Shown piece after piece: positions 4,279 through 59,139 of a DNA stretch of 64,000 bases. The notes beneath the pieces were generated by a model. It did no database searches and was not told where the DNA came from. It saw only the letters and a program-made list of their open reading frames with translations. The stretch covers positions 1,860,001 to 1,924,000 of the forward strand of contig NZ_CP015093.1 in the NCBI RefSeq assembly GCF_001975705.1, read 5' to 3'. Origin of the DNA: Salipiger abyssi. Lineage in GTDB: Bacteria; Pseudomonadota; Alphaproteobacteria; Rhodobacterales; Rhodobacteraceae. The position numbers were made by a program, and so were the translations under genes. The stretch's first letter is position 1; each line of letters opens with the position of its first letter.

Positions 4279-4354
4279 GCGCCCAGAGTACCGCGCCGGA
4301 GGGCGCGAGGCGAGCCTGCGTAGAGTATGAGGTCCGAAAACGGCGAGTCCGGGT

Positions 4355-6249: not shown

Positions 6250-6309
6250 GGGCGTGGCGGTCCCTGTCGAAGATCTCGGTCGGCGGCGCGGGTCGTCCCT
6301 GCGGGGCTG

Positions 6310-6330
6310 GAGTATTTGAAGAAAGATGAA
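6310..6330 (+). repeat. 21-bp dispersed motif, copy 1
   Basis: The motif GAGTATTTG-A-AGAAAGATGAA lies in the 91-bp gap between the dihydroorotase-like gene and the gene at 6341. It matches the motif at 42890-42910 (opposite strand) at 20 of 21 positions. Confidence 0.6.
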
Positions 6331-6340
6331 AGGGGAAGGG

Positions 6341-6736
6341 TCATTCTCGGGCCGGGCGGGCCGCGTCGATCCTGGCGATGGTGGCCTGCGGGTCGGCCTG
6401 GAACTTGATGAGATGCTTGTCGCCGCCCGTGGTGATGAGCTGCACGGCGGAGCCGATCTTGCGCAGCTTTGCCAGATCGGTGAGCGCCACGTAGCGCATC
6501 GCTGGGCCCTTGAGCCCCTCTGTCGTCAGCTCCCAGACATGGCCGAGCTCTTCATCCATGAGATACCAGCCGCGCAGCGCCACGGCGGCGAGCCCGCCCA
6601 CGGCGCCCGTCCAGACATGTGGCGTGCCGGTGAGCCAGAGCACGATCATCGCCCCAGGCATGGCGAGCAGCGCCAGGGTGATGTGGCTCTGGATATAGAT
6701 GGCGCGGTCGGGGGCGAAGACCGTGGTGGTCGTCAT
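6341..6736 (-). CDS. small membrane protein of the pyr cluster
   Basis: I do not recognise a named family for this 131-residue protein. It has two closely spaced hydrophobic segments (about 18-55: HITLALLAMPGAMIVLWL and an Ala/Gly-rich stretch) followed by a soluble C-terminal half that resembles a small PH-like beta domain. Its start overlaps the stop of the upstream gene by 4 bp, so it is co-translated with the 181-residue protein and pyrB. Lying between pyrB and the dihydroorotase-like gene, it may sit at the membrane next to pyrimidine enzymes, but nothing in the sequence shows a function. Confidence 0.8.
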   Translation of the reverse strand: MTTTTVFAPDRAIYIQSHITLALLAMPGAMIVLWLTGTPHVWTGAVGGLAAVALRGWYLMDEELGHVWELTTEGLKGPAMRYVALTDLAKLRKIGSAVQLITTGGDKHLIKFQADPQATIARIDAARPARE

Positions 6737-43820: not shown

Positions 43821-44380
43821 TCCGGTGTCTCCAGTCGGTGTGCGGCCTGCGTCAGCGCGTGCCAGAGCGATCCCGCCGCCGAGCGCATGCCCAGCACACT
43901 CAGCCGGTCTTCGCTGCGGCGCAGGACAAAGACGCTCATGTGATGCAGCCCGGTGCGGGTGGCGCGGCCCGGGGCCAGCGCGTCCGGCGGCAGGTTGACG
44001 AGTTTCTCTGCCAGCCGCAGGAGCGGTGCCGCGCCTTGGGACGAGGCGATCTCGAACGCGGCCCAGCCATCGGTCTGCTCGGTCACCGACGCGCCCGGCG
44101 CCTCGGCGGCCAGCGCTGCGGTGAAATCCTCCTCCGCCCGGCCCGGCGCCTCGATCATCCATTGCCCAGGGCCTGTCCAGAACGCCGCCACGCCGGTGCC
44201 GGCGCGCCAGGCGCCGGGGCCGGGCAGGGTCAGCCCGAAGGGGCTGGGCTCGCGCTGACCCCGGCGCAGCGCCAGCGAGGCCAGCGCGAGCCCGGGGTCT
44301 TCGCTCAGGGTCAGCGCGCCATGGCGGATGCGGCGCGGTGCCGGGGCGCCGAGCGCGGTGAGGGGGGCGAGATCATGCAC
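43817..44380 (-). CDS. soxG: sarcosine oxidase gamma subunit
   Basis: The 187-residue gamma subunit of heterotetrameric sarcosine oxidase, a GcvT-like accessory chain. It has the family block TGPGQWMIEAP and QTDGWAAFEI. The start is taken as GTG at 44380 (VHDLAPLTALG), overlapping soxA by 8 bp; no ATG fits. It overlaps purU by 4 bp. Confidence 0.9.
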   Translation of the reverse strand: MHDLAPLTALGAPAPRRIRHGALTLSEDPGLALASLALRRGQREPSPFGLTLPGPGAWRAGTGVAAFWTGPGQWMIEAPGRAEEDFTAALAAEAPGASVTEQTDGWAAFEIASSQGAAPLLRLAEKLVNLPPDALAPGRATRTGLHHMSVFVLRRSEDRLSVLGMRSAAGSLWHALTQAAHRLETPE

Positions 44381-47315
44381 GGAGACGCTCTCCTTCGGGA
44401 TCGACGAAATGGGCCGAGACGACGCGCAGCGCCACCTCCTGGCCTTCCAGCGGGTTGGCCGCGACAAGCGCGCTGCCCATGCGTGCCTCGCCCTCCGCGA
44501 CAAAGCCGAGCGCGATGTGGCTGCCGAGATGCGGCGACCAGCAGGCCGAGGTGATCCAGCCGAGATCGCTTTCGGTGGTCCGCTCGGCGCCGGGCTCGAA
44601 GAGATGCGCACCGGCGGGCAGCTTCTGCGCCGGGTCCAGCGGCATCAGCCCGACGAGCCGGCGGCTGTCCGAGACCAGCCCCTCGCGGCGTGACATCACC
44701 GCGCCGATGGAGTCCTTCTTGGCCGAAACCATCCGTCCCAGCCCGAGCATCTGCGCGCTGGTCTGGCCGTTGAGCTCCGCACCCGCCGCGTGGCCCTTTT
44801 CGATGCGCAGCACCGCCAGCGCCTCGGTGCCGTAGGGCGTGGCGCCGAGATCCCGGCCCAGCTCCATCAGCCGTGCCATCAGCGCGTTGCCGTAGCGCGC
44901 GGGCACGGCGATCTCATAGGCCAGTTCGCCGGAGAAGGAGATCCGGAAGAGCCGTGCGCGCAGCCCGCCGCAGATGCTGAGCGCCGCGCAGGCCATGAAG
45001 GGAAACGCTTTGTTCGAGAGGTCGAAGTCGTCCACCACCCGCTCCAGCAGCGTCCGCGACTGCGGCCCGGCCACCGCGATCTGTGCCCAGGCGTCGGTGG
45101 TGGAGATGAGCTGCACGTCGAGATCGGGCCAGAGGCATTGCCGGGCAAACTCCATCTGGCGATAGACGAGCCCGGCATTGGCGGTGGTGGTGGTGACCAC
45201 GTAGTGATCCTCGGCCAGCCGTGCGCAGGTGCCGTCGTCATAGGCGACCCCGTCCTCGCGCAGCATCAGCCCATAGCGCACGCGGCCCACCTTCAGCGTG
45301 GCCATCGTGTTGGCATAGATCCGGTTGAGGAAGTCGCCCGCATCCGCGCCCTGCACATCCACCTTGCCCAGCGTCGTCACATCGCAGAGCCCGACGCCCG
45401 CGCGCACCGCCTTTACCTCGCGGTCGACGCTCTCGCGCCAGTGGGTTTCGCCCGGCCGCGGGAAATACTGCGCCCGCATCCATTGCCCGACCTCGACGAA
45501 TTCGGCGCCCTGTGACTCGGCCCACGGATGGGTCGGCGTCAGGCGGCGGGGGCGGAACGTCTCGCCGGTATCGCCGCCGCCCAGCACCGAAAGCGCCACC
45601 GGCGTGTAGGGCGGGCGGAACACGGTGGTGCCGGTCTGGGGCACGGTCCTGCCGGTGAGTTCGGCCATGACCGCAAGCGCGGTGACATTGGCGGTCTTGC
45701 CCTGATCGGTGGCCATGCCGAGCGTCGTCCAGCGTTTCAGATGCTCGACGCTGCGCATGTTCTCGCGATGGGCGAGCGCGATATCCTTCACCGTCACGTC
45801 GTTCTGGAAATCCACCCAGGCGCGGCCCTTGCCGGGCACATGCCAGAGCGGTGCGGCGCCGGCGGGGCGGTCTTCGGCCCCGGGCAGCGCGGGCAGCGGT
45901 GCCGCGATGTCCAGCGCGGCGAGCGCCTGTTGCGCGGCCTCGGCGCCCGAGCGCAGCGCCGCATGGGGCGTGCCATGGCCGGCAGCGGCCCCGGCGACGG
46001 TCATGCCGGGCGGCAGGTCGGCGCCGGGCAGGAAGGTGAGTTGCTCATCGCTCCAGACCGGCTTGCCCCTGTGATGGGCGGTCAGGTGCAGGTTCGGGTT
46101 CCAGCCGCCCGAGACCCCCAGCACCGCGCATTCGAGCCACTCGGCGCGGCCCTCGCGGGTCACCTGAATGGAGGACAGTCCAAGCCGCCCCTTGCTGCCG
46201 GTGACGCTGGCGCCGGCATAGAGCTGATAGTCGCCGAGGCGGGGTGCGGTCTCGCGCGGGTCGATCACCGCGAGGACGGGCACGCCCTTCTCCAGCAGAT
46301 CGCGCGCGGTGCGGTGGCCATCGTCGTTATTGGTGAAGATCGCCACGCGGTCGCTCTCGCGCGTCTGCGGTGTCACGCCCCAGCGGTTGGCATAGGCGCG
46401 CAGCGCGCCGGCCAGCATCACGCCGGGGCGGTCGTTGCCGGCAAAGGGGATGTGGCGCTCGGTGGCGCCGGCGGCCAGCACAGTGCGTTTCGCGGTGATC
46501 CGCCAGAGCGTCTGGCGGATGGAGGCCGGTGTGGCGAGGTGATCGCCCAGCCGCTCCACCGCGCCATATATGCCGTGATCATAGGCACCGAACACCGTGG
46601 TGCGGCGCATCAGCCGCAGGTTCGGCAGGCTGTCCAGCTCGGCCTCGACACCGGCCACCCAGTCGGTCGCGGGCGCGCCGTCCAGCCTGTGGCTTTCCAT
46701 CAGCAACCGCCCGCCGAGGCGGAAATCCTCGTCGGCGAGGATCACCTGCGCGCCGCTGCGCGCTGCCGTCAGCGCGGCAGCCAGGCCCGCCGCACCGCCG
46801 CCGATCACCAGCAGGTCGCAATGCAGGAACCCCTTGTCATAGGCATCCGGGTCGGGCGCATCGGCGAGCTTGCCCAGCCCCGCCGCGCGGCGAATGAGCG
46901 GCTCGTAGAGCTTTTCCCAGAAATGCGCGGGGTACATGAAGGTCTTGTAATAGAACCCGGCGGCAAAGAACGGCGCGAAGAGATCGTTCACCGCGAGCGC
47001 GTCGAAGCCGAGCGAGGGCCAGCGGTTCTGGCTGGTGGCTTCGAGCCCGTCATAGAGCTCGACGCAGGTGGCGCGGGTGTTGGGCTCGGCCCGGGCGCCG
47101 CTGCGCAGGGTGACCAGCGCGTTGGGCTCTTCGGAGCCCGCCGAGATCACGCCGCGCGGGCGGTGGTATTTGAAGCTGCGGCCCATCAGTCGCACGCCAT
47201 TGGCCAGCAGTGCCGAGGCCAGCGTGTCGCCGGGGTGGCCGCGATAGCGCTTGCCGTCGAAGGTGAAGCTGAGCGTCTTGCTGCGGTCGATGAGTCCGCC
47301 GGGGATCCGGGTCAT
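44373..47315 (-). CDS. soxA: sarcosine oxidase alpha subunit
   Basis: A 980-residue subunit. The N-terminal part holds a ferredoxin-like fold and an NAD-binding Rossmann motif (VIGGGAAGLAAALTAARSG, about 170-188). The C-terminal half (about 600-980) is a GcvT-like THF-binding domain that makes 5,10-methylene-THF from the carbon removed from sarcosine. It overlaps soxD by 4 bp and soxG by 8 bp. Confidence 0.97.
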   Translation of the reverse strand: MTRIPGGLIDRSKTLSFTFDGKRYRGHPGDTLASALLANGVRLMGRSFKYHRPRGVISAGSEEPNALVTLRSGARAEPNTRATCVELYDGLEATSQNRWPSLGFDALAVNDLFAPFFAAGFYYKTFMYPAHFWEKLYEPLIRRAAGLGKLADAPDPDAYDKGFLHCDLLVIGGGAAGLAAALTAARSGAQVILADEDFRLGGRLLMESHRLDGAPATDWVAGVEAELDSLPNLRLMRRTTVFGAYDHGIYGAVERLGDHLATPASIRQTLWRITAKRTVLAAGATERHIPFAGNDRPGVMLAGALRAYANRWGVTPQTRESDRVAIFTNNDDGHRTARDLLEKGVPVLAVIDPRETAPRLGDYQLYAGASVTGSKGRLGLSSIQVTREGRAEWLECAVLGVSGGWNPNLHLTAHHRGKPVWSDEQLTFLPGADLPPGMTVAGAAAGHGTPHAALRSGAEAAQQALAALDIAAPLPALPGAEDRPAGAAPLWHVPGKGRAWVDFQNDVTVKDIALAHRENMRSVEHLKRWTTLGMATDQGKTANVTALAVMAELTGRTVPQTGTTVFRPPYTPVALSVLGGGDTGETFRPRRLTPTHPWAESQGAEFVEVGQWMRAQYFPRPGETHWRESVDREVKAVRAGVGLCDVTTLGKVDVQGADAGDFLNRIYANTMATLKVGRVRYGLMLREDGVAYDDGTCARLAEDHYVVTTTTANAGLVYRQMEFARQCLWPDLDVQLISTTDAWAQIAVAGPQSRTLLERVVDDFDLSNKAFPFMACAALSICGGLRARLFRISFSGELAYEIAVPARYGNALMARLMELGRDLGATPYGTEALAVLRIEKGHAAGAELNGQTSAQMLGLGRMVSAKKDSIGAVMSRREGLVSDSRRLVGLMPLDPAQKLPAGAHLFEPGAERTTESDLGWITSACWSPHLGSHIALGFVAEGEARMGSALVAANPLEGQEVALRVVSAHFVDPEGERLRA

Positions 47316-47584
47316 GCGCCGCCCCTCCGTTTCACGTCCGAGGCGAGCTCTGCCGAGACGATCTCATGCGTGCGGGTGTCGCGGGTGACCACCAGCCAGG
47401 AGCGGTCGCCCTGCTCGTGAAACCACAGCTCGCGATGTTGTCCAGCGGGGTTGTCTCGCAGATAGGTGTAGTCGAAAAACGCCGCCTCATCGCCGCCGTC
47501 CGGGCGGTCGAGCAGCGCGGCGTCGCCGAGATAGGTGAATTCCTGCGCGTCGCGGAGGCCGAGAAGGGGGTGGGGGATCAGCAT
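47312..47584 (-). CDS. soxD: sarcosine oxidase delta subunit, zinc ligands replaced
   Basis: The 90-residue delta subunit. Classical SoxD binds zinc through an N-terminal CPYCG-type motif plus a His and Cys near residue 60. Here the N-terminus reads MLIPHPLLGLRDAQEF, and the later Cys is Asp (FHEQGDRSWLV). The rest, including RDTRTHEIVSAEL, is normal. The zinc site appears lost while the fold is kept. It overlaps soxA by 4 bp. Confidence 0.9.
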   Translation of the reverse strand: MLIPHPLLGLRDAQEFTYLGDAALLDRPDGGDEAAFFDYTYLRDNPAGQHRELWFHEQGDRSWLVVTRDTRTHEIVSAELASDVKRRGGA

Positions 47585-47593
47585 GTCAGCGCC

Positions 47594-48844
47594 TCAATGA
47601 AGGTTCGGCTGGGCGCCAACGCCCTTTTCGTCGATGACATGACCGCGCGCGAAGCGGTCGAGACGGAAGGCGGTGGCGGTGGGGTGCGGGCGACCGGTGG
47701 CAAGCAGATGGGCAAAGGCATAGCCCGAGGCCGGCGTCGCCTTGAAGCCGCCATAGCACCAGCCGGCATTGAGATAGAGCCCGTCGATATGGGTGGCGTC
47801 GATGATCGGCGAGCCGTCCATCGACATATCCATGATGCCGCCCCAGCTGCGCAGCAGCCGCGCCCGCCCGATGCGCGGCATCAGCGCCATGCCGCCCTCG
47901 ATCACATCCTCGACCACCGGCAGGTTGCCGCGCTGGGCGTAGGAATTGTAGCCGTCGATATCGCCGCCAAAGACCAGCCCGCCCTTGTCGGACTGGCTGA
48001 CATAGAAATGCCCGGCGCCAAAGGTGATCACCCCGTCGATACAGGGCTTCAGCCCTTCCGAGACAAAGGCCTGCAACACATGGCTTTCGATGGGCAGGCG
48101 CATGCCCGCCTTCGCCATGACCAGCCCCGAAGAGCCCGCCACCGCCACGCCGACCTTCCTGGCGCGGATGGCGCCGCGCGTCGTCTCCAGCCCGCGCACC
48201 GCGCCGCCCTCGATGCGAAAGCCGGTCACTTCGCAGTTCTGGATGATGTCGACCCCCTTGCGGTCGGCGCCGCGCGCATAGCCCCAGGCGACACCGTCGT
48301 GGCGCGCGGTGCCGGCGCGGCGTTGCAGCAGCCCGCCCTTGATGGGAAAGCGGGCGTTGTCGAAATTGAGGAAGGGATACATGGCGCGCACGCCGTCGCG
48401 GTCGAGCAGCTCGGCATCGGCGCCGGCCAGCAGCATGGCATTGCCGCGCCGGCGGAAGGCATCGCGCTGCCCGTCGCTGTGGCAGAGGTTGAGAATGCCG
48501 CGCTGGCTGACCATGGCGTTGAAGTTGAATTCTTGCTCCAGCCCTTCCCAGAGCTTCATCGAGAATTCATAGAACGGCTCGTTGCCGGGCAGCAGATAGT
48601 TCGAGCGGATGATCGTGGTGTTGCGCCCGATATTGCCGGAGCCGAGCCAGCCCTTCTCCAGCACCGCCACACGCGCCTCGCCGAAGGTATTGGCGAGGTA
48701 ATAGGCGGTGGCGAGCCCGTGGCCGCCGCCACCGACGATGACGATATCGTATTCCGGCTGCGGTTCGGGATCGCGCCAGAGCGGTTTCCAGCCCTTATGG
48801 CCGGTCAGCGCCTCCTTGATGACCCTGAAACCCGAGAAATGCAT
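47594..48844 (-). CDS. soxB: sarcosine oxidase beta subunit
   Basis: A 416-residue flavoprotein carrying the catalytic site for sarcosine oxidation (covalent FMN and FAD in the family). The dinucleotide motif DIVIVGGGGHGLATAYYLA is at about 31-49. It is the first gene of the leftward soxBDAG-purU operon; soxD follows after 9 bp. A divergent GlxA-type regulator starts 95 bp away. Confidence 0.96.
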   Translation of the reverse strand: MHFSGFRVIKEALTGHKGWKPLWRDPEPQPEYDIVIVGGGGHGLATAYYLANTFGEARVAVLEKGWLGSGNIGRNTTIIRSNYLLPGNEPFYEFSMKLWEGLEQEFNFNAMVSQRGILNLCHSDGQRDAFRRRGNAMLLAGADAELLDRDGVRAMYPFLNFDNARFPIKGGLLQRRAGTARHDGVAWGYARGADRKGVDIIQNCEVTGFRIEGGAVRGLETTRGAIRARKVGVAVAGSSGLVMAKAGMRLPIESHVLQAFVSEGLKPCIDGVITFGAGHFYVSQSDKGGLVFGGDIDGYNSYAQRGNLPVVEDVIEGGMALMPRIGRARLLRSWGGIMDMSMDGSPIIDATHIDGLYLNAGWCYGGFKATPASGYAFAHLLATGRPHPTATAFRLDRFARGHVIDEKGVGAQPNLH

Positions 48845-48938
48845 CGCGGAACTCCCTTCTGCTCCTCTTGTCTTAGCAGGGCGTCATCGCGCATATCTTT
48901 CGTACAAGAGACGTAAATTTTCGAAAAAGGGTCACGCC

Positions 48939-49886
48939 ATGGCTGCGCGCCGGATCGGGTTCTGCCTTGTCGAGGGCTATGCGATGATGAGCACCGCCGC
49001 CGCGATGGAGCCGCTGCGCGCGGCCAACCTGTTCTCCGACCGACCGCTCTACGAGATCCTGCCGCTTTCGGTCGCCGGCGGGCCGGTGCGCTCTTCGTTA
49101 CCGGCGGCGATCGAGACCCGCGCGCTGGAGGCGGCGGGCAGCGATTTCGACATGGTCTTTGTCGTGGCGGGAGGCGAGCCGCTGCGCATCCGCGACCGGG
49201 CGCTCTATGCCTGGCTGCGGCGGATGGACCGGCTGGGCGTGACGCTCGGCGGGATCTCGGGCGGCTCGGCGGTGCTGGCGCGGGCGGGGCTGATGGACAA
49301 CCGCCGTTTCACCGTGCACTGGCACCATCTGGACGAGCTGCGCGCCATGTCCGACGGTTTCGCGCTGGAGCGCAGGCTCTATGTGATCGACCGCGACCGC
49401 TATACCTGCGCCGGTGGCACGGCGCCGCTCGACATGATGCATGCGATGATCTCTGCCGAGCATGGCGCAGGCTTTGCCCGGCGGATCAGCGACTGGTTCA
49501 TCCAGACCGAGATCCGCGTCGCCGAGGCGCCGCAGCAGGCGAGCATCGCGGCGCGCTATGGCCCCTTGCCGCGCGCGGTGTCCGAGGCGCTGGAGCTGAT
49601 GGAATCGCATATCGCCGATCCGTTGGAGCTGGGGCAGATCGCGGCGCTGGTCGGGCTCTCGCCGCGCCAGCTACAGCGCCAGTTCGCGGGCGCGGTGGGG
49701 ATGTCGGTGATCCGCGCCTATCGCGATATCCGCCTCGGCACTGCGCGGGAGCTGCTGCGCACCTCGCGCATCCGCATCGGCGAGATCGCCCAGATGACCG
49801 GCTTTGCCACCCAGGCCGCGTTTTCCGAGGCCTATCGGCAGCGCTATGACGAGGCGCCGCGACAGGCGCGCGACGCCGGGCTCTGA
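48939..49886 (+). CDS. GlxA/GbdR-type AraC-family regulator of sarcosine catabolism
   Basis: A 315-residue regulator with an N-terminal DJ-1/PfpI-like domain (about 1-175) and a C-terminal AraC helix-turn-helix pair (about 215-312; LVGLSPRQLQRQFAGAVGMS). GbdR of Pseudomonas, which activates glycine betaine, dimethylglycine and sarcosine catabolism, has this design. Its divergent position to soxB supports activation of sox genes. The ATG at 48939 has AAGGG about eight bases upstream. Confidence 0.9.
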   Translation: MAARRIGFCLVEGYAMMSTAAAMEPLRAANLFSDRPLYEILPLSVAGGPVRSSLPAAIETRALEAAGSDFDMVFVVAGGEPLRIRDRALYAWLRRMDRLGVTLGGISGGSAVLARAGLMDNRRFTVHWHHLDELRAMSDGFALERRLYVIDRDRYTCAGGTAPLDMMHAMISAEHGAGFARRISDWFIQTEIRVAEAPQQASIAARYGPLPRAVSEALELMESHIADPLELGQIAALVGLSPRQLQRQFAGAVGMSVIRAYRDIRLGTARELLRTSRIRIGEIAQMTGFATQAAFSEAYRQRYDEAPRQARDAGL

Positions 49887-50269: not shown

Positions 50270-50848
50270 CTAGTGCGGGATTGTTCTGTCCAGAAGCTGC
50301 TCGGCCAGAACCCGCGCGGTGCGGGCAAAGCTGGGGTCGCGTGTGTGCTGCGCGGCGACGATGGCACCGTCGATCAGTACCGCAAAGGAGCGCGCGACTT
50401 CCTTGACGTCGGGCAGCTCCAGCTCGATCGCCTGAGCGGTCAGCCAGGTCATCAGATGCGCCTTGTGCTTTTCCGCCGCCTGCCGCACCGCGTCATTGCC
50501 GGTTTCGAACTCCGCCACCGCGTTGATGAAGGGACAGCCGTAAAAGCCCGGATCGGCGAACCACTCCTCGAGCACGTCGAATACCGCCAGCATGCGCTTG
50601 TCCGCCGGCGCCTGAATCCTGGCCAGCTTGCCAAAGAACCAGGAGCGCCAGGCCGCGCCCTCGGCTTCCAGGACGGCCTCGATCAGATCCTGTTTCGATG
50701 CGAAATGCTTGTAGAGCGTCGCCTTGGCGGTGCCGGCCCGCTCGATCACCGTGTCGACCCCGGTGGAGGAAAAGCCATGGCGGCAGAACAGCGTCGAGGC
50801 GGCAACGAGAATGCGGTCGCGGGCGCTGTGAGGTTCCGACTGCGACAT
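50270..50848 (-). CDS. TetR-family regulator next to the cyanase cluster
   Basis: A 192-residue repressor: N-terminal helix-turn-helix (about 10-55; GVDTVIERAGTAKATLYKHF) and a C-terminal ligand domain with YGCPFINAVAEF. It is divergent from the ABC transporter at 51204. Two similar 18-bp sites in the gap between them are candidate operators. Ligand unknown. Confidence 0.9.
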   Translation of the reverse strand: MSQSEPHSARDRILVAASTLFCRHGFSSTGVDTVIERAGTAKATLYKHFASKQDLIEAVLEAEGAAWRSWFFGKLARIQAPADKRMLAVFDVLEEWFADPGFYGCPFINAVAEFETGNDAVRQAAEKHKAHLMTWLTAQAIELELPDVKEVARSFAVLIDGAIVAAQHTRDPSFARTARVLAEQLLDRTIPH

Positions 50849-50967
50849 GCTCCACGTCCCGGTCGGCGGGGTGGGGCATGCTGGATCGACGGTCTTTAGC
50901 ATGAGAAAAATCCTGGCGACTGACCCGCGCAACTATTGCAGGAGTTGGGCTCCGAGGCAAGTAAAGG

Positions 50968-50985
50968 AGACAGATTCGTTCATCT
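50968..50985. promoter_or_regulatory. candidate TetR operator, site 1
   Basis: AGACAGATTCGTTCATCT shares 14 of 18 positions with site 2 at 51164-51181 in the same gap. It lies about 120 bp upstream of the TetR gene start. Confidence 0.45.
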
Positions 50986-50995
50986 TTGCGAGGCC

Positions 50996-51013
50996 TGATG
51001 CAGAGTCGCATCA
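50996..51013. promoter_or_regulatory. 18-bp palindrome in the TetR-ABC gap
   Basis: TGATGC-AGAGTC-GCATCA is a perfect 6-bp inverted repeat with a 6-nt spacer and could be a regulator-binding site independent of the TetR-like repeats. Confidence 0.4.
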
Positions 51014-51163
51014 ATTTGGCCTTTCGGCGCAAAGGCCGGCGAAGTTGCGATGAAAATGCAGATTATCAGCTAAAAATAGCGCTCAAAATGTAGGCCGGGA
51101 ATAAATCTCTCTGGTTTGTCGGGCGGAAGGCTTGACGAGAATCGGTATTCGTCACCGAAATGT

Positions 51164-51181
51164 AGACAGACCTGTTCGTCT
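51164..51181. promoter_or_regulatory. candidate TetR operator, site 2
   Basis: AGACAGACCTGTTCGTCT is a partial palindrome (AGAC..AC..GT..GTCT) 22 bp upstream of the ABC gene start and similar to site 1. Binding here would block transcription of the importer. Confidence 0.5.
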
Positions 51182-51203
51182 TGTTTCGGAGTGAAACGCT
51201 GAT

Positions 51204-52064
51204 ATGACTTCGCACGCCGCCATCGCGACATCCGCCGCCACGAAGGCCGGGGCCGAGATCCGCAAAACCGCCCCGCGCGGGGCGCATCTCGCCGTCATGG
51301 GGCTGAGTCACGCCTATAGAAAGAGCGACGGGCTGGTGCTGGACGACATCAGTTTCGACGTGCGGCCCGGCGATGTTCTCGCGCTTCTCGGGCGTTCGGG
51401 CTGTGGCAAGTCGACGCTTTTGCACATGCTCTCGGGGCTGGCCATGCCGAGCGGCGGCGAGGTCGTGATCAACGGCAACACCGTCACCGAGCCCTCGCCG
51501 AAATGGGTCATGATGTTTCAGGCGCCATCGCTCTATCCTTGGATGACCGTGGCGCAGAACGCGGCACTCGGACTGCGGTTTTCGCGGCGGGGCCACGAGA
51601 TCGCGCGCCGCGTGCCCGAGGTGCTGGACCTGGTCGACCTCAAGAGCTTTGCCGGTCGCAATGTGCAGGAGCTGTCCGGTGGCCAGCAACAGCGTGTCGC
51701 CCTGGCCCGCTCGCTGGCGACCAATCCCGAGGTGCTGCTGCTCGACGAGCCGTTCTCGGCGCTCGATGCCTTTACCCGCCGGTCGCTCCAGCGCGATGTC
51801 CGCGCCATCGCGCGCGATCTCGGACTGACGCTGGTGATCGTCACGCATGACGTGTCCGAGGCGGTGCGCATGGCCGACCGCGTGCTTGTGCTCGACGCCA
51901 ATCCTGGACGCATTGCCGAGGACACCGGTGTGGCGCTGGACGAGGTGCAGCGCGAAGGCGGCTGCGACCGGTTCAATGCCGAGCATATGCGCCTGATGGA
52001 TCTCTATACCCGCGTCGCCCATGGCGACCCTGCGGATGCCAGCGACGACAACGAAAAATACTGA
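51204..52064 (+). CDS. ABC transporter ATP-binding protein (SsuB/NrtD/TauB type)
   Basis: A 286-residue ATPase with Walker A LLGRSGCGKST (about 61-71), signature LSGGQQQRVALARS (about 158-171), Walker B VLLLDEPFSALDA and the His switch VTHDVSEA. An unusual 30-residue basic N-terminus precedes the domain. The closest transporter class takes up nitrate, sulfonates, taurine or cyanate. It starts the cluster importer - osmC - flavoprotein - cynS. Confidence 0.92.
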   Translation: MTSHAAIATSAATKAGAEIRKTAPRGAHLAVMGLSHAYRKSDGLVLDDISFDVRPGDVLALLGRSGCGKSTLLHMLSGLAMPSGGEVVINGNTVTEPSPKWVMMFQAPSLYPWMTVAQNAALGLRFSRRGHEIARRVPEVLDLVDLKSFAGRNVQELSGGQQQRVALARSLATNPEVLLLDEPFSALDAFTRRSLQRDVRAIARDLGLTLVIVTHDVSEAVRMADRVLVLDANPGRIAEDTGVALDEVQREGGCDRFNAEHMRLMDLYTRVAHGDPADASDDNEKY

Positions 52065-52077
52065 CAGCGAGGAACGG

Positions 52078-53355
52078 ATGACCGATTGCAAGAAACACGC
52101 GCAGCACGATCTGCACGCCGCCTGCTGCGGCCATGACGGGACCGATGAGGGCTTTGACCGTGGTCGCCGCATGACGCTGGACATGCTGGCCGGCGGCGGG
52201 CTGGCCGCGATGATGGGGGCGCTGACCGGCGGTCTGCCGATGCCGGCCATGGCGCAGGAGGATGACGTGGTGCGCATCGGTTATCTGCCGATCACCGATG
52301 CCACGCCGCTGCTCGTCGCCCATGCCAAGGGGTTCTACGCGGACGAGGGGCTCGAGGCCGAGCGCCCGACGCTGATCCGTGGCTGGTCGCCGCTGATCGA
52401 GGCGTTCGTCGCGGGCAAGTTCAACCTCGTGCATTTCCTCAAGCCGATCCCGGTCTGGATGCGCTACAACAACGATTTTCCGGTCAAGGTCATGGCCTGG
52501 GCGCATACCAACGGCTCGGCGCTGGTGGTCGGTCGCCACACGGATGTCGAGGATTTCGCGGGCCTTGGCGGCAAGCAGGTCGCGGTGCCGTTCTGGTATT
52601 CGATGCACAATATCGTGCTGCAATACGCGCTGCGCGCCAATGGCATCAAGCCGGTGATCAAGGCGCAGGGCGAGCCGCTAGCTGCCGACGAATGCAACCT
52701 TCAGGTTCTGCCGCCGCCGGAAATGCCTCCGGCGCTCGCCGCGCGCAAGATCGACGCCTATATCGTGGCCGAACCCTTCAACGCGCTGGGCGAGCTGAAA
52801 GCGGGCGCGCGGATGCTGCGCTTCACCGGCGACATCTGGAAGAACCACCCCTGCTGCGTGGTCTGCATGAACGAGCAGGTCACCACGGCCAAGCCGGAAT
52901 GGACGCAGAAGGTGATGAACGCGGTGGTTCGCGCCTCGGTCTATGCCAGCCAGAACAAGGAAGAGGTCGCCGAGCTGCTGTCGAAGGATGGCGAGGGCTA
53001 TCTGCCGGCACCCGCGCCGGTGGTGAAGCGTGCGATGACGCTTTACGCCGATGACAGCACCTATCTGGAAACCGGCGCGATCAAGAACGAGGCCGAATAC
53101 AAGAACGGCCGCATCGACTTCCAGCCCTGGCCCTATCCTTCGGCAACCAAGCTGATCGTCGAAGAGATGAACCAGACCGTGGTTTCGGGCGACGCCACCT
53201 TCCTCAGCGGGCTCGATCCCGAGTTCGTGGCGCAGGATCTGGTGAATTATGACTACGTGAAAGCGGCGCTTCAGAAATACCCCGAATGGCAGAACGACCC
53301 ATCGGTCGATACCGGCGGCGACCCGTTCGTGCGTGAAGAGGTGCTGAAGCTGTGA
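52078..53355 (+). CDS. substrate-binding protein of NrtA/CmpA/SsuA type with Cys/His-rich leader
   Basis: A 425-residue periplasmic protein with the NMT1/CmpA-like two-lobe fold (RIGYLPITDATPLLVAHAKGF, KFNLVHFLKPIPVWMRY). Its N-terminus before the signal helix is odd: about 20 residues rich in Cys and His (MTDCKKHAQH...AACCGHDG), then a twin-arginine-like RGRRMTLDMLAGG segment and cleavage near PAMA-QE. The ATG at 52078 is preceded by GAGGAAC. A Tat signal would mean export in folded state. Confidence 0.9.
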   Translation: MTDCKKHAQHDLHAACCGHDGTDEGFDRGRRMTLDMLAGGGLAAMMGALTGGLPMPAMAQEDDVVRIGYLPITDATPLLVAHAKGFYADEGLEAERPTLIRGWSPLIEAFVAGKFNLVHFLKPIPVWMRYNNDFPVKVMAWAHTNGSALVVGRHTDVEDFAGLGGKQVAVPFWYSMHNIVLQYALRANGIKPVIKAQGEPLAADECNLQVLPPPEMPPALAARKIDAYIVAEPFNALGELKAGARMLRFTGDIWKNHPCCVVCMNEQVTTAKPEWTQKVMNAVVRASVYASQNKEEVAELLSKDGEGYLPAPAPVVKRAMTLYADDSTYLETGAIKNEAEYKNGRIDFQPWPYPSATKLIVEEMNQTVVSGDATFLSGLDPEFVAQDLVNYDYVKAALQKYPEWQNDPSVDTGGDPFVREEVLKL

Positions 53356-54173
53356 CCTCGATGGCGGACACTCCGAGCGTGCGGCTTGCGCTGCCGAAGC
53401 TTACCCGCCTGCGCGGTCTCGCCTTCGGGCTGCTGGGTATTGCGGGCCTGCTGGCGCTGTGGTGGCTGGGCGGCTGGGCGGTGGCGAACGATCCCGACAT
53501 GTTCGCCTTTGCCGATTTCGCGCCGGCGCCGACGCTGGCGGCGCTCTGGGATATCCTGCGCTCGGGTGAGGTGTTGGGGATGTCCGGCCCGTCGCTCTAC
53601 CGTGTCGGCGCGGGGCTGGTGATCGCCTGCGCCATCGGGGTGCCGGTGGGGATCGCCATCGGTCGTATCGCGTGGCTGCGCGAGCTGACCAATGTGCCGT
53701 TCCAGTTCCTGCGGATGATCTCTCCGCTGAGCTGGATGCCCATCGCGGTCATGGTCTACGAGACCTGGGACGGCGCGATCATCTTTCTGATCGGTGTGGC
53801 GGCGATCTGGCCGATCCTGTTCAGTACCGCCGCCGGCGTGCGCCGCATCGATCCGAGCTGGCTGAAGGTTGCGCGCAACCTGGGCGCCAATCCGTTCCAC
53901 ATGCTTTTCGTGGTGATCCTGCCTGCCATCGCGGTCGATGTGCTCACCGGCATCCGGCTGGCGCTGGGTGTGGCATGGGTGGTGCTGGTGCCCGCCGAAT
54001 ATCTCGGCGTCACCTCGGGCCTCGGCTACGCGATCAACGATGCCCGCGACACGCTCGATTACTCGCGCCTGGCCGCCGTTGTGGTGGTGATCGGAGTGAT
54101 CGGTTTCGCCCTCGACTATGCCTGCGCGGCTCTCATCAAACGATTCAACTGGGTGCGCGACAGCGCGCACTGA
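53352..54173 (+). CDS. ABC transporter permease (SsuC/NrtB type)
   Basis: A 273-residue permease with about six helices and the coupling loop near WLKVARNLGANPFHMLFVVILP. The start is GTG at 53352, overlapping the upstream stop (GTGA); an in-frame ATG at 53361 is the alternative. It completes the importer. Confidence 0.91.
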   Translation: MTSMADTPSVRLALPKLTRLRGLAFGLLGIAGLLALWWLGGWAVANDPDMFAFADFAPAPTLAALWDILRSGEVLGMSGPSLYRVGAGLVIACAIGVPVGIAIGRIAWLRELTNVPFQFLRMISPLSWMPIAVMVYETWDGAIIFLIGVAAIWPILFSTAAGVRRIDPSWLKVARNLGANPFHMLFVVILPAIAVDVLTGIRLALGVAWVVLVPAEYLGVTSGLGYAINDARDTLDYSRLAAVVVVIGVIGFALDYACAALIKRFNWVRDSAH

Positions 54174-54210
54174 TCTCGCAACCAGACGATATTCCAAGAA
54201 GGAGGAAACC

Positions 54211-54747
54211 ATGTCTGAACCCGCAACCGCTCTGACCGGCTGCCTTGCGCCGATCGACAAGACCGGGCTCGACGGCCTGATCGAGCAGGGCAAGGCCAAC
54301 CCCAATGCCGTCAAGACACTCAAATGCAAGACCGTTGCCGAGGGCCGCTTCCGTCACGCCAACTATATCCGCGATCTGGAACCCTATATCGTCGATGAGC
54401 CGCCGGGGCTGCTGGGCGACGACACTGCGCCGAATCCGTCCGAGGCCTCGCTGGCCGCGCTGGGCTCCTGTGTTGCCGTCGGCCTGCACGCCAATGCCAT
54501 CGCCCGCGGCATCACCATCCAGTCGCTGGAGCTGGCACTCGAGGGCGATCTGAACATTACCGCCGTGTGGGGCACGGGCGATGTGTCGGAAAAGCCGGTG
54601 GGCTTCACCGATGTGCGCATCAAGGTCGATATGAAGGCCGACTGCCCGCAGGAAGAAATCGACGCGCTGATCGCTCATGTGATCCAGTGGTCGCCGGTGT
54701 TCAATACCTTCTCGCGGCCCGTGAACATGGTCGCCGAGGCGGTCTGA
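54211..54747 (+). CDS. OsmC/Ohr-family protein
   Basis: A 178-residue OsmC-fold protein with two conserved cysteines (ALGSCVAVGLHANA near residue 87, KADCPQEEID near 143), the pattern of thiol peroxidases acting on organic hydroperoxides. An AAGGAGG ribosome site precedes the ATG. Following an importer and preceding a flavoprotein, it may handle a peroxide or a sulfur intermediate of the pathway. Confidence 0.9.
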   Translation: MSEPATALTGCLAPIDKTGLDGLIEQGKANPNAVKTLKCKTVAEGRFRHANYIRDLEPYIVDEPPGLLGDDTAPNPSEASLAALGSCVAVGLHANAIARGITIQSLELALEGDLNITAVWGTGDVSEKPVGFTDVRIKVDMKADCPQEEIDALIAHVIQWSPVFNTFSRPVNMVAEAV

Positions 54748-54756
54748 CCCGCTTTT

Positions 54757-54786
54757 CCGCCCCCGCCCCGCGCGGCGCGGGGGCGG
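54757..54786 (+). terminator. strong intercistronic hairpin
   Basis: A 10-bp stem CCGCCCCCGC / GCGGGGGCGG followed by CCTTTCCC, placed between the osmC stop and the flavoprotein gene. It may attenuate downstream expression. Confidence 0.6.
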
Positions 54787-54830
54787 CCTTTCCCACCCGT
54801 CCCGCCATGCCCGCCCCAGGAGCCCCCGAC

Positions 54831-55934
54831 ATGAACATCGCGACCCCCCTGAACGTGGTCGATTTCGAGGCCATCGAACGGATTTCCAAATCCGAACTCG
54901 CGCCCATCGCCCGCAAGATCGACGAAGAGCGGATCTATCCCGAAGAGATCATGCGCGCCATGGGTGCGGCCGGCGCCTACGGCACGCATCTGGGCGGCAG
55001 CGACGCGGCGACCGATCTGTCTGAGGCGATCCTCGCCATGGCCAAAGCCTCGGAAACCTGCCTTTCGACCGGTTTCTGCATGTGGTGCCAGGATGCGCTG
55101 GCCTGGTACATCGCCTCTTCGGGCAATGACTGGTTGAAAGCCAACATCCTTCCCGGCGTGGCCAGGGGGGAGATCCTCGGTGGCACCGGCATGTCGAACC
55201 CGATGAAATCCATCGCCGAGATCGAGCCCCTGCGCCTCAAGGGCAAGCGGGTCGAGGGCGGCTATCAGGTCAAGGGCCTGCTGCCCTGGGTCTCGAACCT
55301 GTCGGAAGGCGGCTATTTCGGCGTGATGTTCTCGGTCGAGGAGGGCGATACGGCCAAGACCGTGATGGCCATCGCCGAGGCTGACGAGGCCAAGGGCGTG
55401 AAGCTGAAGCTCGACCACGATTTCGTTGCCATGGGCGGCACGGCGACCGTCAACGTGCAGTTCCGCGACGTCTTTATCCCCGACGAGCAGGTCATCGGCG
55501 ACCCGGCGCCCGCCTTTATCAAGCGTATCCGCGGCGGCTTTGTGCTGATGCAATGCGGCATGGCTGCGGGCATGATCAAGAGCGCCATCGAGCTGATGGA
55601 GCAGGTCGAGAAGCCGCTGGGCCATGTAAACAGGTATCTCGACAAGCAGCCTGCCGATTTCCGGCAAGCGTATGACGCGCTTGTGGCCGAGGTGCTGGCG
55701 CTTGCGAAAACGCCGTATGACGACGGCCCCGACTACTGGAGGCGGGTGCTACAGGCCCGTCTGACCGGTGGCGAGCTGTCCGTCGAGGCGGCGCATTATG
55801 CCATGCTGCATTGCGGCGCGCGCGGCTATGTCAGCCAGGGCGCGGCGCAGCGGCGCCTGCGCGAAGCCTATTTCGTGGCCATCGTGACACCGGCGACCAA
55901 GCACCTGCGCAAGATGCTGGCCGAACTCGGCTGA
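54831..55934 (+). CDS. acyl-CoA dehydrogenase-fold flavoprotein of the cyanase cluster
   Basis: A 367-residue protein with the three-part ACAD fold: an N-terminal helical domain (about 1-115), a beta domain (about 120-210; YQVKGLLPWVSNLSEGG, FVAMGGTATVNVQFRDVFIP) and C-terminal helices. The usual catalytic-Glu region of acyl-CoA dehydrogenases is not evident. Related flavin-dependent monooxygenases (DszC/SfnB type) use this fold to cleave sulfur or nitrogen compounds, and an oxidative role fits the cyanase neighbour. The ATG at 54831 has AGGAG about eight bases upstream. Confidence 0.85.
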   Translation: MNIATPLNVVDFEAIERISKSELAPIARKIDEERIYPEEIMRAMGAAGAYGTHLGGSDAATDLSEAILAMAKASETCLSTGFCMWCQDALAWYIASSGNDWLKANILPGVARGEILGGTGMSNPMKSIAEIEPLRLKGKRVEGGYQVKGLLPWVSNLSEGGYFGVMFSVEEGDTAKTVMAIAEADEAKGVKLKLDHDFVAMGGTATVNVQFRDVFIPDEQVIGDPAPAFIKRIRGGFVLMQCGMAAGMIKSAIELMEQVEKPLGHVNRYLDKQPADFRQAYDALVAEVLALAKTPYDDGPDYWRRVLQARLTGGELSVEAAHYAMLHCGARGYVSQGAAQRRLREAYFVAIVTPATKHLRKMLAELG

Positions 55935-56020
55935 GATGTGCGCGCACCCGCCGGGTCATGCGCCGGGAGGGCGCAGCCGGCATTCGTGATCTATCAACAA
56001 CCTGAATGGAGACCATCGCA

Positions 56021-56473
56021 ATGACCACCCGTGCCGAGCTGACCGAGAAAATCGTCGCGCACAAGACCTTCAACGACATCAAATGGGCCGATGTGGCCGC
56101 TGCTGTCGGCCAGTCGAAGGAATGGACGACCGCCGCATTGATGGGTCAGATCTCGCTCACCAAGGAGCAGATCGAGAAGGCCGGCAACGCCATGGGGCTG
56201 AACTTCTCGGACGAGGAAACCGCGCTGTTGATGACCGTGCCATATCGCGGGTCGCTGCCCAGTGCGGTGCCCACCGATCCGCTGATCTACCGCCTGTATG
56301 AGGTGGTGAATGTCTATGGCACCACCATGAAGGCGCTGATCGAGGAGGAGTTCGGCGACGGCATCATGTCGGCCATCGACTTCACCATGGACATCTCGCG
56401 TACCGAAGACCCCAAGGGCGATCGGGTAAAGATCGTGCTCGATGGCAAGTTCCTTCCCTACAAAATGTACTGA
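56021..56473 (+). CDS. cynS: cyanate hydratase (cyanase)
   Basis: A 150-residue enzyme that converts cyanate and bicarbonate to carbamate, which gives ammonia and CO2. The active-site residues align with E. coli CynS at a constant offset of five: Arg91, Glu94 (YRLYEVVNVYG) and Ser117 (GIMSAIDF). An N-terminal helix-turn-helix-like domain precedes them. The start at 56021 has GGAG eight bases upstream. Last gene of the cluster, with a terminator after it. Confidence 0.97.
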   Translation: MTTRAELTEKIVAHKTFNDIKWADVAAAVGQSKEWTTAALMGQISLTKEQIEKAGNAMGLNFSDEETALLMTVPYRGSLPSAVPTDPLIYRLYEVVNVYGTTMKALIEEEFGDGIMSAIDFTMDISRTEDPKGDRVKIVLDGKFLPYKMY

Positions 56474-56483
56474 GCCACGATAC

Positions 56484-56513
56484 GGGGCGGCGCGGGCCGC
56501 CCCTGTCTCTTGT
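56484..56513 (+). terminator. rho-independent terminator after cynS
   Basis: Stem GGGGCGGC / GCCGCCCC with a 4-nt loop followed by TGTCTCTTGT, 10 bp after the cynS stop. Confidence 0.8.
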
Positions 56514-56726: not shown

Positions 56727-57036
56727 CAGGGCGGTACGACCTGAATTAGAATTATGCTACGCCGCAGAAATTTTCCGGTTCAATCATGCCGGGGTAAGCT
56801 GGGAGTTTCAATAGAAGCTTCTGAAAGGTAACGATTAATTTTAAGAGCCAGTCAATCTTTGGAGGAAGCTGGATTTTATTAATGGCTGTGTCTGGATGCT
56901 CATCGCCCTGTAAGGTGAGGGTAAGACGTCGCGCTTCTGTTTGTGCGGGCCATTTCAAAAAGATTTCAGGGCAGGATAAACCTGCCGGTCCCTACGAGCA
57001 GTCGAAGTTTGGATGTTAAGTAATTGGGATATCGTC

Positions 57037-57717
57037 ATGTCAGATACTTCGACGAATTCGACCAATCTAGAACCCTACGAGATCGCCGCCGGCGTCAAGA
57101 GTGAGCGCTTCTATCACGGTTTCGCAAAGCGACCGTTCGATTTGTTCCTCGCGGCGCTGATGCTGCCGATTCTCGTGCCGGTGATCGCCCTGCTCTATGT
57201 GGCGGTCCGTCTTGAGGGCGGGCCGGGCTTTTTCGGACACCACCGGGTCGGGCGCAACGGGCAGGTGTTCCGCTGCTGGAAGATCCGCACCATGGTGCCG
57301 GACGCGAAGGAGCGGCTGGAGCATTTGTTGGCCAATGACCCGCAGGCACGCGCCGAGTGGGAAAGCGACCGCAAGTTGCGCAATGACCCGCGTGTCACCC
57401 GCCTGGGTGCGTTCCTGCGCAAGAGCTCGCTCGACGAGCTGCCGCAGATCTGGAACGTTCTGAAGGGCGAAATGAGCCTTATCGGACCGCGTCCGGTGAC
57501 CGCGCCGGAGCTGGAGCGCTACGGCGGTCACAAGTGGATTTACCAGTCCATGCGTCCGGGGATCACCGGGCTCTGGCAGGTCTCGGGCCGCAACGAGGTC
57601 AGCTATGACGAGCGGGTCCAGCTTGATGCGAATTACTTCCGGGAGCTTTCGCTCGTGTCGGATGTTCGTATTCTCCTCCAGACCGTCGGCGCCGTGCTGA
57701 ACCGTACCGGGTGCTGA
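57037..57717 (+). CDS. exopolysaccharide-initiating sugar transferase (ExoY/WbaP type)
   Basis: A 226-residue membrane enzyme that transfers a sugar-1-phosphate to undecaprenyl phosphate to begin polysaccharide assembly. It has one membrane segment (about 30-58) and the catalytic motifs GRNGQVFRCWKIRTM, DELPQIWNVLKGEMSLIGPRP and RPGITGLWQVSGRN. ExoY of Sinorhizobium has the same length. The start is taken at 57037 (MSDTST); an ATG at 57013 is possible. Confidence 0.94.
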   Translation: MSDTSTNSTNLEPYEIAAGVKSERFYHGFAKRPFDLFLAALMLPILVPVIALLYVAVRLEGGPGFFGHHRVGRNGQVFRCWKIRTMVPDAKERLEHLLANDPQARAEWESDRKLRNDPRVTRLGAFLRKSSLDELPQIWNVLKGEMSLIGPRPVTAPELERYGGHKWIYQSMRPGITGLWQVSGRNEVSYDERVQLDANYFRELSLVSDVRILLQTVGAVLNRTGC

Positions 57718-57729
57718 GACGGCGCCCAT

Positions 57730-57759
57730 CACCCGCCGGGCGTTCGTGGCCGGCGGGTG
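57730..57759 (+). terminator. hairpin after sugar transferase
   Basis: Perfect 10-bp stem CACCCGCCGG / CCGGCGGGTG with a 10-nt loop, 13 bp after the sugar transferase stop. No T-tract, so it may attenuate rather than end transcription. Confidence 0.55.
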
Positions 57760-57894
57760 GCACGGGAAGGCTGAGCGGTCTTCCGGAATGACAACGCGAC
57801 GCGGGCGGCCTATCCGCCCGGTCTGTCCGCGACGGTGTTTTGCGGGCTATCAGTCCGCCGACAGAGGCGGCAAAGACAGGACGGAAGAAGCGTG

Positions 57895-59139
57895 ATGACG
57901 GCATCGGGTGCTGGGCTGGGTATCGCAAGACAGGTGCTGGCCGCTCTGATCTTGTCTCTGATGATTTCGGTGGCCGCGATGACGGTCGCCAGCGCCGAAC
58001 CCTATCGCCTCGTGGCCGGGGATCGCCTGACCGTGGGCTTTGTGGCCCAGGGGCTGACCGAAGAGATCCCGATCGATATCGACGGCCAAATCCGGCTTTC
58101 GGAGCTGGGTGGCCTGACGGTCACCGGGCTGACTCTGGACGAGGCGGAAACGCGGATCGCGGAAAGCGTCGAAGAGGCCGGCCTTTACATCAATGCGCGG
58201 GTCTCGCTCGCGGTGGAGAGCTATGCTCCGATCATCGTCGCCGGCGATGTCACGCGGCCCGGAAGCTTTTCCTATATCCCCGGAATGACCGTGAGCGCGG
58301 CACTGGCACTGTCCGGCGGCAGCCAGGCCGCCGGGGTCAGCCGTTTCGAGATCGACCGGGCGCGCACCGAGGTCGAGGGCTCGCTGAAGCGGCTGAATCT
58401 CCAGATCGCCGCCTCCGTGGCCCGTGTGGCGCGGTTCGAGGCGCTGATTGAAGGGTCGTCGGACTATGTTCTGTCGGAGAGCCTGCGCTCGGTGATCCCG
58501 GCGCCCGGCGCGGTCGATCTCGATGCGCTGACCAGCGCCGAAGCGGAGTTGCTGACCAACGCGATTGAGCGCGGAGAAGAGCTGCTCGGGTTCTGGGAGG
58601 AGGAGATCTCCTCCATCGAAACGCAGCAGGCGCTGTTCGATCAGCGGATCGAGGTGCAGAACGAGATCGTGGCGAGCGTGGCTGCGGATCTCGACACGGC
58701 CCAGGATCTGCGCGACCGCGGATTGCAGACCGCCTCACGGCTTTCGACGGTGGAGCAGCGCGACGCCGATGCAAGGGCGCGGGCGCTGGAGTTGGAATCC
58801 GCGCAGATCCGTGCCGCCCAGGCGATTTCCGATGCCAGGCGCGCCAGGTCTCAATTCCTGTCGAGTCGGCGCAGCGATGCGCTGGCGGCCTTGCAGGAGG
58901 TCAGGATCGGTCTGGACGAGGCGCAATTGCGCTATGCCCAAGGGCTGGAGCAGCTGGCGCTGTTGACGGGTGGCAATATGGGCACGCTGCTGTTTTCGGA
59001 TGCCATCGAGACCCGTTTCCAGATCCAGAGCCTGCGCGAGGGTCGCGAAAACCTGACGCAAATCACCCCGCAGACCCGGTTGCTGCCCGGCGACACGCTG
59101 TTTGTGGTGCTCGAGCCGGTTGGTGCCGCCGCGAACTGA
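57895..59139 (+). CDS. polysaccharide export protein (Wza/ExoF type)
   Basis: A 414-residue periplasmic/outer-membrane export protein. Signal peptide near residues 1-36 (ending TVASA-EPY), a polysaccharide-export domain (YRLVAGDRLTVGFVAQG), an SLBB-type domain (IIVAGDVTRPGSFSYIPG), and a long coiled coil (about 220-330). The coiled-coil insertion is the ExoF/OpxA layout. The ATG at 57895 follows GGAAGAAG. Together with the sugar transferase it belongs to a cluster for a secreted polysaccharide. Confidence 0.9.
   Translation: MTASGAGLGIARQVLAALILSLMISVAAMTVASAEPYRLVAGDRLTVGFVAQGLTEEIPIDIDGQIRLSELGGLTVTGLTLDEAETRIAESVEEAGLYINARVSLAVESYAPIIVAGDVTRPGSFSYIPGMTVSAALALSGGSQAAGVSRFEIDRARTEVEGSLKRLNLQIAASVARVARFEALIEGSSDYVLSESLRSVIPAPGAVDLDALTSAEAELLTNAIERGEELLGFWEEEISSIETQQALFDQRIEVQNEIVASVAADLDTAQDLRDRGLQTASRLSTVEQRDADARARALELESAQIRAAQAISDARRARSQFLSSRRSDALAALQEVRIGLDEAQLRYAQGLEQLALLTGGNMGTLLFSDAIETRFQIQSLREGRENLTQITPQTRLLPGDTLFVVLEPVGAAAN

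Follow-up and report, generated by a model that had tools for sequence, protein, structure and literature searches.

The DNA analyzed here is a 64,000-nucleotide stretch of the Salipiger abyssi genome (NZ_CP015093.1, positions 1,860,001 to 1,924,000; "the window"), and its subject is a gene cluster that ends in the cyanase gene cynS. The cluster consists of seven intact open reading frames (ORFs) with clear family matches. A divergent TetR-family regulator is followed on the other strand by genes for an ATP-binding cassette (ABC) transporter ATPase, a substrate-binding protein, a permease, an OsmC-related protein, a protein of the acyl-CoA dehydrogenase (ACAD) fold and cyanase (Table 1). This order agrees with a first-pass annotation of the sequence, which described five genes in one direction ending in cyanase with a TetR gene opposed. 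That annotation had placed the cluster at 50270..56513; the gene content of this span stands, but the stop codon of the last gene lies at 56473. The call of a complete cyanase at the cluster end also holds, as the full-length protein scores above the TIGR00673 cut-off of 113.3 bits and matches PF21291 in addition to PF02560. The second ATG, at 56021, is the probable start codon of cynS, in agreement with the sister species Salipiger pentaromativorans.

Table 1. Features of the cyanase cluster, in window positions
Feature	Position	Strand	Basis
TetR-family regulator	50270..50932	-	PF00440 56 bits, PF16925 38.3 bits; likely start ATG 50848 (by eye)
Second, degenerate operator-like site AGACAGATTCGTTCATCT, 2 mismatches	50968..50985	+	genome pattern search; weak
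Candidate TetR operator AGACAGACCTGTTCGTCT, imperfect palindrome 5' of the ATPase gene	51164..51181	+	1 window match vs 0.03 expected
ABC transporter ATPase	51204..52064	+	PF00005 125.9 bits
Substrate-binding protein, NMT1_2 (NrtA/CmpA/CynA-like)	52078..53355	+	PF13379 158.6 bits
ABC permease	53352..54173	+	PF00528 74 bits
OsmC-related protein	54211..54747	+	PF02566 62.3 bits
ACAD-fold protein (likely flavoprotein), without catalytic Glu	54831..55934	+	
86-base gap where sister Salipiger has a two-domain rhodanese gene	55935..56020		BLAST of window vs S. pentaromativorans locus (L013)
Cyanase (CynS)	56021..56473	+	TIGR00673 169.2 bits, PF02560 124.9 bits

Conserved linkage of the cluster

Genome contigs were scanned with a profile of 21 ACAD-fold sequences, which returned at least 574 stretches; the best 80 (52–92% identity) were taken with flanks of up to 10 kb. 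As controls we used 20 loci of paralogous ACADs in sampled relatives, about 15 kb each (~7 kb flanks). By tblastn, the 80 loci contain OsmC (78), TetR (68), rhodanese (66), cyanase (53), ferredoxin reductase (42), a 2Fe-2S ferredoxin (10) and a DsbA/HCCA-isomerase-like protein (10), and these counts are lower bounds because some contigs end inside the cluster. None of these families was found in the 20 control loci, three of which have an ABC ATPase. Clustering of codon-scored gene calls yielded rhodanese in 63 loci, cyanase in 50 and ferredoxin reductase in 35; since such calls miss some genes, including the ACAD gene itself in 5 of the 80 loci, the tblastn counts are preferred. The linkage is far above chance. 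Conserved linkage in other genomes had been set beforehand as a test that could refute the first-pass proposal, and it is seen in the 80 loci as against the controls.

The gene following the ACAD gene, in the 75 loci where the latter was called, encodes rhodanese (60), cyanase (5), ferredoxin reductase (2) or another protein (5), with the contig ending in three cases. An additional 28 same-strand neighbors were listed across the loci, none belonging to a recurrent cluster of neighbors. The closest ACAD-fold protein among the matches listed is that of Salipiger sp. P9 (92% identical). A search by name for Methylobacterium homologs turned up M. nodulans and M. nonmethylotrophicum; the 120 matches listed of 4554 do not include M. 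thiocyanatum.

To relate the ACAD-fold protein to cyanase at the level of whole genomes, we used 295 Rhodobacteraceae genomes from 294 genera (ACAD threshold, E below 1e-60), since a class-wide sample gave too few positives for a statistical test (2 of 289 genomes with the ACAD, own genome included). The ACAD was found in 11 genomes and cyanase in 39, among them all 11 with the ACAD (hypergeometric P=5.5e-11, phylogeny ignored); two of the 11 (G458 and G486) have cyanase on another contig than the ACAD. Additionally, 22 of 27 genomes without linked cynS at the locus have the gene elsewhere. When 54 cyanase copies from 53 loci were placed in a tree with the window's own, four supported deep clades emerged beside the same core: one of the window type (24 copies), one of Stappiaceae/Ahrensiaceae (9), a further Rhodobacteraceae clade (13) and one of Hyphomicrobiales (9), with a long-branch warning that makes the deep joins between clades uncertain. 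Three of these clades occur in Roseibium/Labrenzia loci, and the copy of L056 lies 7.8 kb away on the other strand. The tree suggests that the ACAD-OsmC core stays with cyanase even where one cyanase gene has been exchanged for another; alternatively, the clades may reflect old vertical divergence.

Encoded proteins and their partners in related loci

The ACAD-fold protein matches acyl-CoA dehydrogenases over its whole fold (VIA-align), and dehydrogenases are the nearest folds and sequences among the matches listed. The catalytic glutamate of the C-terminal YEGTSE segment is absent: residues 346–361 are AYFVAIVTPATKHLRK, without an acidic residue, and on this ground we rejected a reading as a plain acyl-CoA dehydrogenase. 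The family motifs are SNxxK (122–126) and RRxRE ... TP (341–354). T353-P354 is kept in 101 of 101 loci, W153 in 88 and S155 in 96 of the 101, and C77, W85 and C86 are almost invariant. Group D flavin monooxygenases use the ACAD fold for oxygenase chemistry. The window protein has the whole fold in common with these enzymes (DszC, for example) as well as with acyl-CoA dehydrogenases, and is set apart by the missing catalytic glutamate and by its own SNxxK and TP motifs. No group D monooxygenase is among the 50 VIA-align matches listed, and the homolog in Caballeronia (L171) has a weak match to the HsaA monooxygenase (18.9 bits). We infer that the protein is likely a flavoprotein, with predicted binding of flavin adenine dinucleotide (FAD) and putative oxygenase chemistry.

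Many related loci encode a reductase. The ferredoxin reductase is putidaredoxin-reductase-like and in some loci stands next to the 2Fe-2S ferredoxin, while a fusion of rubredoxin with a NorW-type reductase is found in L134, L135, Marinobacter L166, Moraxella L167 and Acetobacter L168, and by homology in L133 and L171. Because two electron-delivery modules occupy the same place, they argue that the putative flavoprotein needs electrons, as an oxygenase would. On family grounds only, the reductase may use NADH, and electrons may also flow in the opposite direction. The ferredoxin reductase gene follows cynS in S. pentaromativorans and is gone from that place in the window, where exopolysaccharide genes are found; the window genome has a 65% ferredoxin-reductase homolog elsewhere.

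Sulfur genes were also found beside the core. Where the window has 86 bases between the ACAD gene and cynS, S. pentaromativorans (L013) has an 855-base rhodanese gene, and no ortholog of this rhodanese was found elsewhere in the window genome (best match 31%). Thus compared, the window cluster is probably a reduced member whose lineage has probably lost its dedicated rhodanese. L134 encodes a Blh-type sulfur dioxygenase (383 bits), with a 58% homolog in L135. In Caballeronia L171, an ETHE1-type persulfide dioxygenase (193.6 bits to ETHE1) directly follows cynS. Read from ORFs and homology, as the record is unannotated there, the gene order of L171 is sigma-54 activator, OsmC, ACAD, rubredoxin-reductase fusion, CynA-type binding protein, permease, ATPase, cynS and persulfide dioxygenase; judged by these families, it is a predicted unit for the disposal of both cyanate and sulfane sulfur. 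Because relatives add reductases and sulfane-sulfur genes, and the L171 operon joins a rubredoxin reductase and a persulfide dioxygenase to OsmC, ACAD, importer and cyanase, cyanate and sulfane sulfur are the likely products of the cluster.

Another locus, L132, encodes a type 2A encapsulin and a class-V aminotransferase (cysteine-desulfurase-like) protein. Type 2A encapsulins of this kind serve in sulfur storage. The SrpI-like encapsulin and the 748-residue desulfurase-like protein, which has a long Pro/Ala-rich N-terminus, are encoded at 3531–6805 of L132, directly after the ACAD gene.

The OsmC-related protein has the OsmC domain and its first cysteine, C87, which is on the list of positions conserved at 97%; C11 and C39 are additional conserved cysteines (71 sequences). 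Classical OsmC/Ohr proteins have a second catalytic cysteine in their C-terminal part. No conserved cysteine follows C87 in the 71 sequences, the window's C144 being unconserved, and W160-S161-P162 is conserved where the second cysteine would be expected, in an alignment of OsmC-related sequences without a classical OsmC/Ohr protein. Two paralogs likewise have SP or SA at that place. Since no second cysteine is conserved, we dropped a classical peroxidase role, and with it the earlier label "thiol peroxidase-type OsmC". In L137–L141, L143 and the Moraxella plasmid L167, OsmC is replaced by a CMD protein resembling AhpD; the six sequences inspected share a C-x-F-C motif. Because a CxxC protein of this kind stands in the place of OsmC in some loci, a thiol-redox role for OsmC is suggested.

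The importer had been called SsuBAC-type, a label that the binding protein does not support. Its PF13379 match is above the cut-off, its match to TIGR01728 (SsuA; 103.3 bits) is below the cut-off of 163.5, and its top sequence matches in the PDB are mainly nitrate/bicarbonate (Nrt/Cmp) transport proteins. By these family and sequence matches, the importer resembles the NrtA/CmpA small-anion family more closely than SsuA, and its NMT1_2 binding protein, permease and ATPase together have the makeup of a small-anion ABC importer. An H-x-C-C motif (H257, C259, C260) is invariant across 13 aligned SBP5- and CynA-type binding proteins, with HPGKV in its place in aligned CmpC-type domains. The N-terminus consists of a Cys/His-rich leader followed by RR and a hydrophobic stretch; positions 52078–52170 encode the leader, CKKHAQHDLHAACCGHDG, and comparable leaders are present in several homologs and absent from others. 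When importers were typed by identity thresholds of 60% and 50%, 49 of the 80 loci had the SBP5-type only, 14 the CynA-type only, six both and 11 neither. The six loci with both importers are hinting that the SBP5-type takes an anion other than cyanate.

Thiocyanate as a candidate substrate

Thiocyanate (SCN-) is a common toxic pollutant and a by-product of natural and industrial processes. On balance, and with modest confidence, we read the cluster as a thiocyanate assimilation operon; thiocyanate is the best fit, being the smallest anion from which both cyanate and sulfane sulfur would arise. The ABC importer, with its NrtA/CmpA/CynA-type binding protein, would bring in SCN-. The ACAD-fold flavoprotein would be reduced via a ferredoxin or rubredoxin reductase, in the window's case presumably one from elsewhere in the genome, and would oxygenate the sulfur (SCN- + O2 + 2e- -> a hypothiocyanite-like species). 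Either C77 or C86, acting as a conserved thiol and perhaps helped by the OsmC partner, would then accept the sulfane sulfur as a persulfide, freeing cyanate. The sulfane sulfur would pass to rhodanese, persulfide dioxygenase or a store, and cyanase would convert cyanate and bicarbonate to NH3 and CO2. The first-pass annotation had proposed that an imported N- or S-containing compound, for example thiocyanate, is converted to cyanate through the flavoprotein. The linkage, the sulfane-sulfur genes, the reductases and the cyanase in 11 of 11 ACAD genomes speak for that proposal, in which the substrate and its oxidation remain predictions.

Published work on this cluster was not recognized among the open-licence PMC papers listed, going by titles and abstract openings, and the accessible part of PMC13021748 contains nothing on it. 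The accessible part of PMC5328954 describes two primary routes of SCN- degradation, one to carbonyl sulfide (COS) via thiocyanate hydrolase and one to cyanate via the copper enzyme thiocyanate dehydrogenase (TcDH). It also names heterotrophs that take nitrogen from thiocyanate, with no enzyme named in that part. A TcDH-like desulfurase is assigned to Afipia in the section of PMC8061750 available. Similar to the TcDH pathway, the pathway proposed here would lead from SCN- to cyanate, with sulfur leaving at the sulfane level, and then to cyanase. However, TcDH is a copper enzyme (PMC5328954 and PMC8061750, in the parts available), whereas the window has an ACAD-fold protein and an importer, with reductases in relatives; the two are set apart by these descriptions. 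ScnABC of the COS pathway also degrades SCN-, and NitT/TauT-type ABC genes, sulfide:quinone reductase (SQR) and cyanase can adjoin the hydrolase genes (PMC5328954, same part). In contrast, no nitrile-hydratase-type gene is among the families of the window cluster, and its predicted product is cyanate, not COS. PF02979 (nitrile-hydratase-type alpha) has no match in the window's own genome and none in any control genome. CynABD-CynS systems share cyanase and an NMT1_2-type ABC importer with the window cluster; here, the conserved core is made up of OsmC and the ACAD-fold protein, and CynA-type importers occur beside SBP5-type ones in six loci.

It is possible, at just short of an even chance in our estimate, that an ACAD-fold enzyme, fed by a reductase and paired with an OsmC or AhpD-like thiol protein, acts as a thiocyanate monooxygenase/desulfurase and so constitutes a further SCN- route, one that the papers searched do not describe, encoded on chromosomes as well as plasmids of Alpha-, Beta- and Gammaproteobacteria. 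If so, this new breakdown route may explain how aerobic heterotrophs use nitrogen from SCN-, the acyl-CoA dehydrogenase fold would gain a new reaction, and many genes annotated as plain acyl-CoA dehydrogenase would gain a function. A compact conserved operon with a candidate enzyme makes the question testable in culturable marine and soil bacteria. The accessible part of PMC6440457 describes an SCN--degrading consortium that is oxic, O2-dependent and NH4-inhibited, with few recognized degraders. Its members include a Thioclava-pacifica-like operational taxonomic unit (Rhodobacteraceae, 12.8%), Martelella (4.0%) and Xanthobacter (5.4%). T. pacifica (L037), T. marina (L033), Martelella alba (L078) and Xanthobacter aminoxidans (L091) all carry the cluster.

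Several observations weigh against thiocyanate assimilation. The window cluster itself has no sulfur gene and no reductase. Persulfide dioxygenase was found in none of the 80 closer loci and in two of the 15 distant ones; for encapsulin the numbers are none and one. The Blh match of L134 is below the model's full-length cut-off of 625 bits, with weaker matches of its metallo-beta-lactamase (MBL) fold to glyoxalase II models. The 15 distant loci (~15 kb each) have OsmC in eight, CMD in six, rhodanese in four and cyanase in two, together with sulfur dioxygenase (2), the rubredoxin-reductase fusion (3) and encapsulin (1). At the position of C77, the most distant members, L139–L143 (~30% identity), have Ser; neither cyanase nor rhodanese is linked to them, and their substrate may be a different compound. 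No cyanase was detected in 5 of the 27 genomes without linked cynS, namely L045 (an isolate) and four metagenome-assembled genomes. Lastly, cyanase is not proof of a cyanate pathway, according to the part of PMC5328954 available, and the consortium match is at genus level only, with Phyllobacteriaceae (27.8%) as the largest family (PMC6440457, part available).

The ACAD-fold flavoprotein might instead be a cyanide monooxygenase (HCN + O2 -> cyanate) supplied with electrons by the reductases of related loci, with rhodanese detoxifying leftover cyanide to thiocyanate and the importer recovering cyanate or thiocyanate. Rhodanese is the textbook cyanide sulfurtransferase, and in L136 a cytochrome bd-like oxidase pair (recognized by eye; 4191–6648) adjoins the ACAD operon. 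However, L136 is the only one of 117 loci scanned (20 controls included) with a cytochrome bd gene, HCN needs no ABC importer although 69 of the 80 loci have an SBP5- or CynA-type one, and persulfide dioxygenase and a sulfur-storage encapsulin would be unexplained. We consider this route unlikely. Rather improbable, in our judgment, is another S-C-N anion or organic compound, such as an isothiocyanate-derived dithiocarbamate or thiocarbamate, that would be oxidized to cyanate and sulfane sulfur. Sulfur handling with cyanase suits any S-C-N compound, and substrate range may vary given that L139–L143, mostly with the same importer family, have no nearby cyanase; yet the binding protein belongs to the small-anion Nrt/Cmp/Cyn type, and no family for an organic remainder recurs in the 80 loci by clustering, the 28 extra neighbors not having been family-searched. 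Plain cyanate uptake and detoxification, with OsmC and the ACAD-fold protein carried along as an unrelated stress module, is very improbable: CynABD-type importers are known together with cyanase, which 28 of 284 Rhodobacteraceae genomes have without the ACAD, but every ACAD genome has cyanase, even those with it on another contig, and the ACAD-OsmC core is constant while cyanase type and importer vary.

Promoter region, plasmid copies and neighboring genes

In all 65 clustered loci the TetR gene was called on the opposite strand, and a TetR repressor bound at AGACAGACCTGTTCGTCT would govern the divergent promoter. Sites matching AGACAGACCTGTTCGTCT with 0–2 mismatches are present in 23 of 65 divergent-promoter regions, against 1.15 expected by base shuffling (relatedness uncorrected). 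The site at 51164–51181 is the sole exact match in the genome. Near-matches genome-wide number 7 forward and 6 reverse against 12 and 9 for the reversed control, and 2-mismatch sites are no commoner than in the control. With a single exact match and such near-matches, a wider TetR regulon is unsupported.

Four of the five loci L139–L143 (not L142) have an importer of the same family and an AhpD-like partner. Plasmids carry the cluster or its core in 26 records, three of which were typed as conjugative; 18 are from Pseudosulfitobacter, and Marinobacter, Acetobacter, Moraxella, Methylocystis and Caballeronia are among the others (L166–L171). In Actibacterium (L087, 12517–13113), an ANTAR-domain regulator is flanked by the DsbA-like gene on one side and by a CynA-type importer with cyanase on the other.

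On the minus strand of the window, positions 44373–49886 contain sarcosine-oxidase-like genes (980 and 416 residues, with a 90-residue ORF between them) beside an AraC/DJ-1-type (GlxA-like) regulator; no connection of these genes to the cyanase cluster was seen. Downstream of cynS, positions 57013–59139 hold the exopolysaccharide genes, encoding a sugar transferase and a polysaccharide export protein.

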